NCBI GenBank assembly: GCA_008012315.1
Contig: SSEL01000003.1
Location: forward strand, 62,001-126,000
Reading direction: 5' to 3'
Origin: Rhodospirillaceae bacterium
GTDB taxonomy: Bacteria > Pseudomonadota > Alphaproteobacteria > Dongiales > Dongiaceae
DNA length: 64,000 nt
Under the pieces are notes generated by a model that was not told where the DNA came from, did not search any database, and saw only the letters and a list, made by a program, of their open reading frames with translations. Position 1 is the first letter of the stretch. Each line of letters begins with the position of its first letter. The position numbers and the translations under genes are program-made. Shown in pieces: positions 1 to 52,879 of this stretch.

Positions 1-1920
1 GCCACCTTGATCAACGCCTCGCGCTGCTCTGTCGTCGCTGCCGTGAGGGCTGTCGTCTTCTCGCCCACCGCATCGACGGTCGATTGGAAGGCCGCCGATT
101 GCTGCCCCAGGAGCTCCTTGAACTTGTCGGCCGCCGTTTCGGCCAAAGCCGACAATCGGTCGCTTTCGCCATGCAAGGCGGATTGGAGATCGCGGCTGCG
201 CTGTTCCAGTTGCAGGATCCCGGCATCCTGCGCCGCCGATTGCCGGGCGATCTGCTCTTCCAGGCGCTTGGCGGTGGTCTCGCTGACCTGTTCCAGCATC
301 TTCGCCTGCTCGCCCATCTTCTCGGCGAAATGCGTCGATGAGGATGTCAGCGTTTCAGTGAGTTTGCCGGTGGTTTCGCCGGCCAGGCTGTTCAAGCGGC
401 CGCTTTGCGCCTCCAGCAGCGCCTGCAGATCGCGGCTGCGCTGTTCCAGCTCGGCGGTCGCCGTTTCCTGGGCAGCGGCATGGCGGGCGATCTCGGCCCG
501 CAGCCGTTCCGCCGTGGCCGCGCTGAGCTGCTCCAGGGTCGTACCCTGCTCCGAAAGATCCGAAGCGAAACGGGATGTGGTTGCCCGCAGCAGCTGCGTC
601 AGCCTGGTCGTCGCCTCGCCTGCCGTGTCGTTCAGATGCGCGCTTTCCACCTGCAACGCCGCCTGCAGGTCCTTGGCCCGCTCGGCGAGATCGGTAATGG
701 CCTTTTCCTGGGCCGCCCTCTGCTCAGCGATCTCGGCGCGCAGGCGCTCGGCAGCAGCGCTGCTGGTTTCATCCAGGTGATGCCCCTGGCGGGCGACATC
801 CTCGGCAAAGCGGGTGGAAGCCGCCTGCAGCAACTGATCAAGATTTTCGGTGGCGCTGCCGGCCGCAGCTTTCAGGCTTTCACCTTGGGCCTGCAAGGCC
901 GTCTGCATCTCCCGGGCACGCTGGATGAGATCGGCAATCGCCTTTTCCTGGAGGGTGACCTGTGCGGCGATTTCCTCACGCAGCCTGGACGCCGTCGTCG
1001 TGCTGGTTCCGGCGAGACGCTGGCCGTGCCGGGAGATATCCTCGGCGAAGCGGGCAGAGGTTGCCTGCAGCAAGCGATCCAGCTTCTCCGTCGCGCTATC
1101 GGCAGCGGTGTTCAGGCCATCGCTCTGCGCCTGCAGGGTCGCCTGCATCTCCGTCACGCGCTGTGCGAGATCGGCAATGGCCTTTTCCTGCTCGGCAATA
1201 TGGTTGGTGACTTCCGCGCGCAGTTTCGCCGCGGTAGTGGCGCCGGTTTCCTCGAGACGCTGGCCTTCCCGGGACATATCCTCGGCAAAGCGCGCGGAGG
1301 CTGCCAGCAGCAGGTGATCGAGCTTCTCGGTCGCCGCGCCGGCCGAGGCATTGAGGCTCTCGCCCTGTGCCTGGACGGCGGAACGCATCTCGGCCGCCTG
1401 TCGTTCGAGCTCGGCAAAGACCTGCTTCTGCGTGACGAGCTGCTGGGCGATCTCCGCCTGCAAGCGGGCGATGGCGGCGCTGCCGCTTTCTTCGATGCTC
1501 TTTCCCTGCTCGACGACTTTCCCGGCAAAGCGGGTCGAGGCCGCCTGCAGGGACTGATCGAGCTTGAGTGCCGCCTCGTTTGCCGCTGTCCCGAGCCGGT
1601 CTCCCTGGCTCTGCAAGGCAGCCTGCATTTCGCGCAGGCGCTGCTCCAATTCGCCGATGGTCTTTTCCTGGGCGGCAATCTGCTGGACGATCTCCGACCG
1701 CAGTCGGATCGAGGCCGAAGTGCTGGCCGCATCCAAAGCCTCGCCGTGGCGGGTGACATCGCCGCTGATGCGCGCCGCCGAGGATTGCAGGAGCTGTTCC
1801 AGCCGCGCCGCTTCAGCATCGACCGTCGATGCGAGATCGCGTTGCCGGCGATCGGCGAGATCGCCGATTTCCGCCAGGCGCTGCTCATGCGCTTTCAAAT
1901 GATCGAGGAAGCGCTGGCCG
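1..1920 (-). repeat. Tandem 240-bp (80-residue) coding repeats, about eight copies
   Basis: The sequence aligns with itself at an offset of exactly 240 bases from the left edge to about 1900. For example, the segments at 687, 927, 1167, 1407 and 1647 all read close to 'gagatcggcaatggcctttt' on the plus strand. I translated 720-959 on the minus strand: it contains the pieces QEKAIADLIQRAREMQ, ALQAQGESLKAAA, DQLLQAASTRFAED and HLDETSSAAAERLRAEIAEQ. Neighbouring units keep the same order with substitutions. Beyond about 2100 the 240-base register fades, although the composition stays the same. Confidence 0.85.
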
Positions 1921-33503: not shown

Positions 33504-33580
33504 GAGCCATGTGCGAATGATGCCCGGCATGGCCCGTCCAGCCCTTGCCAGGATTTCATCGCTTGGCTAGAGTAGCCCCT

Positions 33581-33658
33581 ATGAGCAAGATGCAGATGAC
33601 ATCCGGTGCCGTGCGCACCTCGCGATTTTGGTACCGCTGGTACAGCCCGGCGGCCTAG
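33581..33658 (+). CDS. Aromatic-rich leader peptide of a transcription attenuator (25 aa)
   Basis: A 25-codon frame, ATG at 33581 and TAG at 33656-33658. Its second half reads TSRFWYRWYSPAA: Phe-Trp-Tyr-Arg-Trp-Tyr, five aromatic residues in six, far above chance. A terminator hairpin follows 25 bases after the stop. GGCGGC at 33649-33654 can pair with the 5' arm of that hairpin (GCCGCC, 33687-33692) as an antiterminator. Together these are the parts of a classical ribosome-mediated attenuator sensing Trp/Tyr/Phe supply. No aromatic biosynthesis gene follows. Confidence 0.75.
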   Translation: MSKMQMTSGAVRTSRFWYRWYSPAA

Positions 33659-33683
33659 GATCGTGCGCATCTGACACAACCCC

Positions 33684-33710
33684 GAAGCCGCCCCCTGTAA
33701 GGCGGCTTTC
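33684..33710 (+). terminator. Attenuator terminator after the aromatic leader peptide
   Basis: GAAGCCGCC at 33684-33692 pairs with GGCGGCTTTC at 33701-33710 around an eight-base loop, followed by a T-rich stretch (GTATTTCC). Its 5' arm overlaps the alternative antiterminator pairing described for the leader peptide. Confidence 0.8.
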
Positions 33711-33782
33711 GTATTTCCGGTTCCCGGTCGATCGAATCCCCGCCTGACATGGAGCGGTTTCCCTAACCAGGAGACCGAGACC

Positions 33783-33998
33783 ATGAAACGCAGCCATTCC
33801 ACCGATTTCGACGTCATCACCGGCCCCTCGATGGCCAGCGCTTGCCCGGTCGTGGAGACCGTGCCGGTAGAGTCACAGCCGCTTGCCGAAAGCCGCCTGT
33901 CCGAAAATCGGCTGTCCGAGAGCCACTTGGCCGGGAAGCCCGATGACGGCGCTACGGTGCCGGCGCCGCATCAGCCGGCACCAGCATCACCAGTTTGA
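33783..33998 (+). CDS. Small ORF downstream of the attenuator (71 aa), possible remnant
   Basis: Not recognised. AGGAGA lies eight bases before the ATG at 33783. The product is hydrophilic and Ser/Pro-rich with a short internal repeat (SRLSENRLSESHL). It occupies the position where the gene controlled by the attenuator should be, but resembles no aromatic-pathway enzyme. Its last 47 bases overlap the 3' end of the convergent MmyB-type regulator gene. It may be a real small protein, or the stump of a gene replaced by rearrangement. Confidence 0.4.
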   Translation: MKRSHSTDFDVITGPSMASACPVVETVPVESQPLAESRLSENRLSESHLAGKPDDGATVPAPHQPAPASPV

Positions 33999-34767
33999 TA
34001 TCCGGCTGATTGGCGAGGGTGAAGGCGATCTGCCGGTAGAGCAGCAGGCCGCGCTGCGGATGCTGGAACTGCCGGTCACCGCCTTCCCGCCCCAGCACCG
34101 ATTGTTCTTCCCACAGGCGGCTGAAGGCCGGGCTGTGGCGGCGCAGGTCGGCGATCAGCCCGCGCAGCTGCGGATCGTCCAGCGCATGGCTGTGATCGGC
34201 GCGGAACTCGGCCACCACGCGCCGCGCCCGCTCTTCCCAATCGACGATCATCTGGCGCGCCAGGGGCTCGAGGAAGATATAGCGCAGCAGATTGCGCTGT
34301 GGATCGACGGCACTGTCATCCAGCCAGCCGATAAAAAGCGTGGCCGCCGCCGCGTTCCAATGGCGCGCCTGCCAATGCCGGTCCAGCAGATAGGCCGGCA
34401 CCGCCACGGCGGCAATGGCAGCAGCAGCCGCTTCCGGCAAATCGCCATCCTCGCCGGCCTGGTGAATATCGGGATCGCGCTTGTCGGCCAGGTCGAACAG
34501 ATAGGCCCGCTCCGCCCGGGTGAGGCGGAAGGCCCTGGCCAGGCGCGCCAGCGCCGCCGGCGACATCGATACGTCCCGCCCCTGCTCGATCCAGGTATAC
34601 CAGGTGGCGCTCATGCCGCCGAGCTGGGCCGCTTCCTCCCGCGTCAAGCCGGGGGTGCGGCGCCGCGATCCCGTGGGCAAACCGAAGGAGGCCGGCGACA
34701 GACGTGCCCGCTGGGCTCGCAAGAAGGCCGCCAAAGCATGGCGCTGGGAGGAGGGAGGTGTCTTCAT
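33952..34767 (-). CDS. MmyB-type helix-turn-helix transcriptional regulator
   Basis: 271 residues. N-terminal XRE-like HTH (GLTREEAAQLGGMSATWYTW, then EQGRDVSMSPAALARLARAF), followed by the MmyB ligand-binding domain (YLLDRHWQARHWNAAAATLF), a PAS-like fold reported to bind fatty acids in one structure. Such regulators usually control a divergent oxidoreductase or methyltransferase. The ATG at 34767 leaves out a non-conserved extension. It is divergent from the SAM methyltransferase gene over a 152-base region with a clear inverted repeat (34779-34803). Confidence 0.92.
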   Translation of the reverse strand: MKTPPSSQRHALAAFLRAQRARLSPASFGLPTGSRRRTPGLTREEAAQLGGMSATWYTWIEQGRDVSMSPAALARLARAFRLTRAERAYLFDLADKRDPDIHQAGEDGDLPEAAAAAIAAVAVPAYLLDRHWQARHWNAAAATLFIGWLDDSAVDPQRNLLRYIFLEPLARQMIVDWEERARRVVAEFRADHSHALDDPQLRGLIADLRRHSPAFSRLWEEQSVLGREGGDRQFQHPQRGLLLYRQIAFTLANQPDIKLVMLVPADAAPAP

Positions 34768-34778
34768 GGCAGTTTTTA

Positions 34779-34803
34779 TACCAGGATAACTACTAGGCTG
34801 GTA
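34779..34803. promoter_or_regulatory. TACCAG...CTGGTA operator-like inverted repeat
   Basis: TACCAG at 34779-34784 and CTGGTA at 34798-34803 form an inverted repeat with a 13-base spacer, centres about two helical turns apart, just upstream of the MmyB-type regulator start. A likely operator for that regulator, controlling itself and the divergent methyltransferase. Confidence 0.5.
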
Positions 34804-34834
34804 CCGGTATGAATTTGGCCACATCCTGGTCCCT

Positions 34835-52792: not shown

Positions 52793-52879
52793 TGGTGCCC
52801 CTGGCCGGACTCGAACCAGCACATCTGTGAAGATACCTGATTTTGAGTCAGGCGCGTCTACCAATTCCGCCACAGGGGC
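52793..52879 (-). tRNA. tRNA-Leu (anticodon CAA)
   Basis: On the minus strand an 87-base cloverleaf: acceptor GCCCCTG pairs with CAGGGGC, D arm with AATTGGTAGACGC, anticodon stem CCTGA/TCAGG around loop CTCAAAA with anticodon CAA, a long variable arm as in class II tRNAs, T loop GGTTCGAGTCC and an encoded CCA end. Reads UUG codons. No integrase or attachment-site repeat is visible beside it. Confidence 0.97.

Follow-up and report, generated by a model that had tools for sequence, protein, structure and literature searches.

Ribosome-mediated attenuators normally precede genes for enzymes of the amino acid that they read. In the standard mechanism, a ribosome stalled in the leader ORF frees region 2 of the RNA, and a ribosome at the leader stop codon covers it. 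The enterobacterial trp and phe leaders (Rfam Trp_leader and Phe_leader) combine a coding leader with this logic of 1:2, 2:3 and 3:4 pairing. In Bacillus subtilis, a tryptophan-reading leader peptide controls the synthesis of anti-TRAP (rtpA), a zinc protein that is folded and whose target is known. In Sinorhizobium meliloti, trpL (rnTrpL) has a leaderless leader ORF at the first base of the transcript, followed by an antiterminator/terminator and located upstream of trpE(G) (PMC7298713). In Corynebacterium glutamicum, the Phe-Tyr-Phe leader peptide aroR controls the DAHP synthase (aroF) operon by ribosome stalling, as summarized in PMC11802643, citing Neshat et al. 2014.

Here we describe a leader that is predicted to read Phe, Trp and Tyr in a Rhodospirillaceae bacterium. 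It lies in a contiguous stretch of 64,000 nucleotides (the window) and is followed by a small ORF with the motif DFDV. Like S. meliloti trpL, the locus is alphaproteobacterial, and its leader ORF is predicted to be leaderless, lacks a Shine-Dalgarno site and precedes an alternative antiterminator and terminator. In contrast to trpL, which reads Trp only, is located before trpE(G) and has no DFDV ORF, the leader described here contains F, W and Y codons and no trpE follows. With aroR, as far as the summary cited above describes it, the locus shares an aromatic-codon leader that some relatives carry upstream of a class II DAHP synthase gene. Unlike aroR, its leaders combine Phe, Tyr and Trp, its transcript probably starts at the leader ORF itself, and what usually accompanies the leader is a microprotein instead of an enzyme. 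The 1:2, 2:3, 3:4 logic is that of the enterobacterial leaders, but the leader peptide, structure and target are different and no Rfam threshold was reached in this region. As with anti-TRAP, a small non-enzyme protein appears to be under leader-peptide control; unlike anti-TRAP, the DFDV protein is predicted to be disordered, and the leader would work by transcription termination.

Results

A leader ORF with a probable leaderless start

The first-pass annotation had proposed a classical attenuator with a 25-residue leader containing Phe-Trp-Tyr-Arg-Trp-Tyr, a terminator hairpin and an alternative GGCGGC/GCCGCC pairing. Each of these elements was recovered (Table 1), in support of this proposal, and the coding leader was found to be kept together with three mutually exclusive helices across 56 sequences.

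Table 1. Features of the attenuator locus, in positions of the window
Feature	Position	Strand	Remarks
Promoter TTGCCA-17-TAGAGT, sigma70-type	33545..33573	+	predicted start point at or within ~1 nt of the leader ATG
Leader ORF, 25 aa, MSKMQMTSGAVRTSRFWYRWYSPAA-stop	33581-33658	+	ends RFWYRWYSPAA-stop; probably translated from leaderless mRNA
Region 1, CCGCTGG	33634..33640	+	5' arm of the 1:2 hairpin, inside the Tyr-Arg-Trp codons
Region 2, CCGGCGGC	33647..33654	+	partner of region 1 (CCGGCGG) or, via GGCGGC, of region 3
Region 3, GAAGCCGCC	33684..33692	+	terminator 5' arm; 3' partner of the antiterminator
Region 4, GGCGGCTTTC (33701-33710) and interrupted T-run (TTTCGTATTT)	33701..33716	+	terminator 3' arm and tail
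Possible hairpin CGGTTTCC / GGAGACCG	33755..33777	+	perfect 8-bp stem in the window; if formed, it would mask the Shine-Dalgarno site ahead of the small ORF
DFDV microprotein, 71 aa (MKRSHSTDFDVITGPS...)	33783..33998	+	the attenuated gene, as judged from motif, Shine-Dalgarno site and dN/dS

The promoter in Table 1, the only sigma70-like one found in the region, ends 7 nt 5' of the leader ATG. Of 78 relatives, 50 had a TTGnnn-16..18-TAnnnT box within 70 nt, which without exception ended 6 to 8 nt before the leader ATG; from shuffled sequences, 0.04 such boxes were expected at 5 to 8 nt. Furthermore, the leader ORF was without a Shine-Dalgarno site in 77 of the 78 relatives. Because of this promoter spacing and the absent Shine-Dalgarno site, we conclude that the leader ORF is probably leaderless, as is S. 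meliloti trpL, with its transcript start at the predicted position.

The heptapeptide core of the leader occurred as RFWYRWY, RYFGRWF, RFYGRWF, RFYDRWY and RYFTRWY; the order of residues was reshuffled and the F, Y and W codons were kept. Leaders of other sequence that were retrieved with a covariance model always contained Phe, Tyr and Trp codons and always ended in PAA. A short ORF with a conserved cluster of F, W and Y codons is the form expected of an attenuator leader. As a separate observation, synonymous sites in CGATTTTGGTACCGCTGGTAY (window positions 33623-33643, and the leaders of relatives) were almost invariant across families, more so than can be ascribed to the 1:2 hairpin by itself; in genomes rich in GC, TTT and CGA would not be expected.

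Competing helices are conserved with the leader

The GGCGGC at 33649-33654 is able to pair with the GCCGCC of the terminator. In the 56 sequences, the 1:2 helix (CCGCTGG with CCRGCGG) was paired in 100% of cells, and the six pairs of the terminator core GCCGCC/GGCGGC were present in all 56, one G-C being G-U in two of them. Jointly, the 1:2 helix and the terminator were paired in 98.9% of cells. The corresponding value for the 2:3 helix was 86.6%, even though it draws on bases that 3:4 also needs; in comparison with shuffles, the 2:3 helix showed no gain. Since the core pairs of all three helices are nearly invariant, covariation adds little. It was seen at terminator pair 72-99, where A-U was replaced by G-C, on both sides, in 8 of the 56 sequences. 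The RNA argument is thus that three mutually exclusive helices are kept with the coding leader, while the spacer between them varies freely.

The geometry of the window and of the 56 sequences makes antiterminator and terminator mutually exclusive and region 2 reachable only with a stalled ribosome. According to the coordinates, a ribosome at Phe16, Trp17 or Tyr18 occupies region 1 while GGCGGC stays free, and a ribosome at the leader stop codon covers GGCGGC.

The T-run of the terminator is poor. A generic terminator scan missed the window terminator because this run is interrupted. In an Rfam scan of the whole window, there was no match at the leader, Trp_leader and Phe_leader staying below the gathering threshold. 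The only Rfam match of the window was a tRNA gene (52796-52879, minus strand).

The likeness to trpL raises the question of whether the terminated leader RNA or the leader peptide is itself a product acting in trans, like rnTrpL or peTrpL, with the DFDV ORF being secondary. The leaderless architecture would fit such a role, as would the near invariance of CGATTTTGGTACCGCTGGTA, in which 19 of the first 20 nt were identical in the 56 sequences. The leader codons TTT and CGC never varied in this set, although the search pattern permitted TTC and other Arg codons and left the leading CGA unspecified. However, the invariance is partly due to the 1:2 hairpin, the terminated RNA is otherwise highly variable between the helices, and the DFDV ORF is itself under selection (see below). 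We therefore regard a trans-acting leader product as the main function of the locus as quite unlikely.

The cassette recurs in several alphaproteobacterial groups

Leader and terminator, which the first-pass annotation had suggested seeking in related genomes, are present there. A codon-degenerate pattern for FWYRWY was run on 17 genomes of the Dongiaceae, the family of the window, and detected the leader in 12; a separate DNA search gave the same loci. In a public scan with one genome per species, 91 loci carried the leader. Among the matches listed (80 of the 91 with titles) were Dongia, Azospirillum and Acetobacteraceae, e.g., Roseomonas, Neoroseomonas, Belnapia and Rhodopila. Since the 91 loci were selected by FWYRWYxPA, peptide conservation among them is by construction, whereas terminator, promoter and downstream ORF are outside the pattern. 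Wherever the available stretch reached far enough, the terminator was present; the downstream ORF motif was seen in 89 loci and the promoter in most.

A covariance model built from the 56 sequences and applied class-wide separated true cases (at least 49 bits) from noise by a clear gap. The element was detected in 45 of 82 genomes of the order containing Azospirillum, never in more than one copy, and 42 of these 45 come from the same genus as the Azospirillum record L064. Six named genomes that were searched whole had one strong cassette each, and no cassette was found in the plasmid collection searched. A class-wide search for the DFDV codons added new true cases in two genomes only; its remaining matches were unrelated proteins or antisense frames.

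Of the weaker covariance-model matches looked at, only L221 (genome G293, from a different alphaproteobacterial family) resembled another aromatic leader. It has a leaderless-looking aromatic leader, MLKTLSHNAWYFTPLT-stop, at ~1475-1525, with a terminator, behind which an ORF from position 1633 reads like a putative GNAT acetyltransferase.

Hairpins are plentiful in GC-rich genomes, and the generic scan does not call the one in the window, as might be expected if a Trp/Tyr-rich small ORF lay beside a GC-rich hairpin by chance. Such a coincidence is extremely improbable, given that the unit is conserved across several bacterial families and orders and that its leaders are reshuffled with constant composition.

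A small ORF under purifying selection follows the terminator

As first annotated, the next frame codes for 71 residues and overlaps the end of a convergent gene, which is MmyB-like (33952-34824, minus strand); the overlap is 47 bases. It looks incidental, because the genes beside the cassette differ between relatives. The same annotation saw no recognisable target gene behind the attenuator. The 71-aa ORF is not debris but the conserved and selected companion of the leader. In line with this, the annotation's alternative suggestion of a small protein controlled by aromatic amino acid supply gained support.

The motif (F/Y)DFDV[I/V][T/S/G]GP recurs with leader and terminator as a unit in Dongiaceae, in Azospirillum and in many Acetobacteraceae. 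A small ORF with a [DE][FY][DE]V-type motif was present 3' of the terminator in 89 loci and read DFDV in all 89, a count biased by the use of the motif to find the ORFs; three loci lacking the motif were recorded. DFDV was followed by I or V in 81 of the 89, then by T, S, G or A, with GP in most; in Dongiaceae, D and T or A mostly follow. Synonymous codons vary inside the motif. Complete small ORFs comprised 17 to 71 aa, save four of 255-266 aa, and a Shine-Dalgarno site preceded 71 of 87. The hairpin that would hide this site (Table 1) has comparable stems, with altered letters in both arms, in many relatives, before DFDV or aroG, and is statistically weak (mean z -0.7).

Among 44 close pairs of the small ORF, dN was lower than dS in 43 (median dN 0.09 versus dS 0.35), and many of these pairs were stand-alone cases from Azospirillum and Neoroseomonas. 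These substitution patterns indicate that the DFDV ORF is under purifying selection, also where it stands alone.

No Pfam family was found for the 71-aa microprotein or the relatives submitted, and no NCBIfam family for it and three relatives (four small proteins). An AlphaFold model of the microprotein based on 52 sequences had no secondary structure (pTM 0.15), and the composition is Pro/Ala/Glu-rich. According to this prediction, the microprotein is probably disordered, with (F/Y)DFDV[IV]xGP as its conserved part.

In four cases, a DFDV N terminus runs in frame into an SBP_bac_11-like domain (L080:860-1636, L095:6445-7242, L122:107-871 and L149:51-815). No signal peptide is evident in these fusions, and PF13531 matched in all three that were scanned. 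AlphaFold modeling of a fusion (four sequences) placed residues 1-13 under pLDDT 50 and gave no lead.

Enzyme genes of aromatic metabolism follow in some relatives

The gene that follows in relatives, which the first-pass annotation had suggested looking up, was the DFDV ORF in 89 loci and aroG directly in three. Eleven Acetobacteraceae-type loci have a class II DAHP synthase gene (aroG; PF01474, E<1e-200) behind the DFDV ORF, usually overlapping it by a few bases, and about as many have trpG and trpD there. The remaining loci, the window included, have unrelated genes behind the DFDV ORF, on either strand; it stands alone in the family of the window and in most others sampled. The loci with aroG directly behind the leader, without DFDV, were three with an RFWYRWY leader and three with an RFYDRWY or RYFTRWY leader. 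The attenuator is followed by genes of aromatic metabolism (aroG, trpG-trpD) in some relatives and, in the window, by the DFDV ORF alone. Gene order in these relatives points to aromatic biosynthesis as the setting of the sensor. In our sample, DFDV-linked aroG or trpG was restricted to Acetobacteraceae-type loci, and this linkage might have arisen by the chance joining of genes into one operon.

In an AroG tree, the attenuator-linked enzymes, except that of L112, formed one supported group apart from ordinary copies. The L066 genome (G400) has two class II DAHP synthase genes (L251 and L254), one behind the attenuator and one without it. In the genome of the window, there was no aromatic-run leader ORF within 1.5 kb on each side of aroG and of two trpE-like genes; likewise, no aromatic leaders were found near aroG and trpE in Dongiaceae. 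The attenuator described here is therefore the only aromatic one found in this genome.

These arrangements bear on the idea that the attenuator once drove an enzyme gene, e.g., for class II DAHP synthase, that was lost here, leaving the small ORF as a bystander or a leftover translational coupling peptide. Some Acetobacteraceae indeed have the order leader, DFDV ORF (17-50 aa) and aroG, with ORFs overlapping or nearly touching, and others have leader and aroG without DFDV. Moreover, a linked paralogue could have been lost elsewhere, as the attenuator-linked AroG proteins, all but one, form their own clade and one genome has both copies. Nevertheless, 12 genomes of Dongiaceae, and Azospirillum as a whole, retain stand-alone DFDV ORFs amid varying neighbour genes, with the motif kept and dN well below dS, and a coupling peptide is needless where no gene follows. 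We consider a mere remnant rather unlikely. The loss of the attenuated gene, as first proposed, is thus not a sufficient account, since the following ORF has been retained and, where it is alone, evolves under purifying selection. As history, loss retains a place: because class II DAHP synthase or trpG-trpD would also be under the control of this leader in some relatives, an enzyme gene may formerly have lain behind the small ORF in the lineage of the window. DFDV may have been the original target, with enzymes joining behind it, or an enzyme paralogue may have been lost in the stand-alone lineages.

Discussion

Taken as a whole, the locus is likely an aromatic attenuator that switches on a DFDV microprotein upon starvation. 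The leader, the promoter position, the three helices, the terminator and the conserved and selected small ORF are supported by sequence comparison; stalling, antitermination and the direction of the response we infer from established attenuator logic. The leaderless mRNA would start at the ATG of the 25-codon leader. A shortage of Phe-, Trp- or Tyr-tRNA would stall the ribosome in Phe16-Trp17-Tyr18, over region 1, so that GGCGGC of region 2 pairs with GCCGCC of region 3 and blocks the 3:4 terminator. Transcription would then continue into the 71-aa microprotein. With plentiful aromatics, a ribosome at the stop codon would cover region 2 and the terminator would form. As judged from the sequences compared, the most likely outcome is that aromatic starvation turns on a disordered microprotein, which would report this starvation in trans.

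What the microprotein does can be addressed tentatively. Because aroG or trpG-trpD comes directly after its ORF in some relatives, often with overlapping stop and start codons, the best guess is that it binds and tunes a chorismate-node enzyme, either DAHP synthase or anthranilate synthase, although we consider this less likely than not. More broadly, and as doubtful, DFDV could be a lineage-wide starvation signal, a microprotein whose short linear motif binds a chorismate-node enzyme or a regulator in trans. If so, one attenuator would adjust a pathway in which the enzyme genes themselves lack attenuators.

The kind of mechanism is familiar. Within the libraries and papers searched, no attenuator that targets a stand-alone DFDV microprotein appears to have been described. 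No paper with FWYRWY and none on an alphaproteobacterial DAHP synthase leader was found, which is weak evidence for novelty because subscription papers lay outside the search.

The most constant companion of this attenuator for all three aromatic amino acids is a protein of 17-71 residues with a fixed DFDV core, in single copy in Dongiaceae, Azospirillum and Acetobacteraceae. Since DFDV is kept across these three alphaproteobacterial groups behind an RNA switch that is predicted to read Phe, Tyr and Trp, our comparison suggests that hunger for aromatic amino acids is signalled via a microprotein and not only via biosynthetic enzymes. The cassette offers a testable entry to aromatic-starvation signalling in these bacteria, some of them plant-associated, and to a small-protein family outside the Pfam and NCBIfam profiles.
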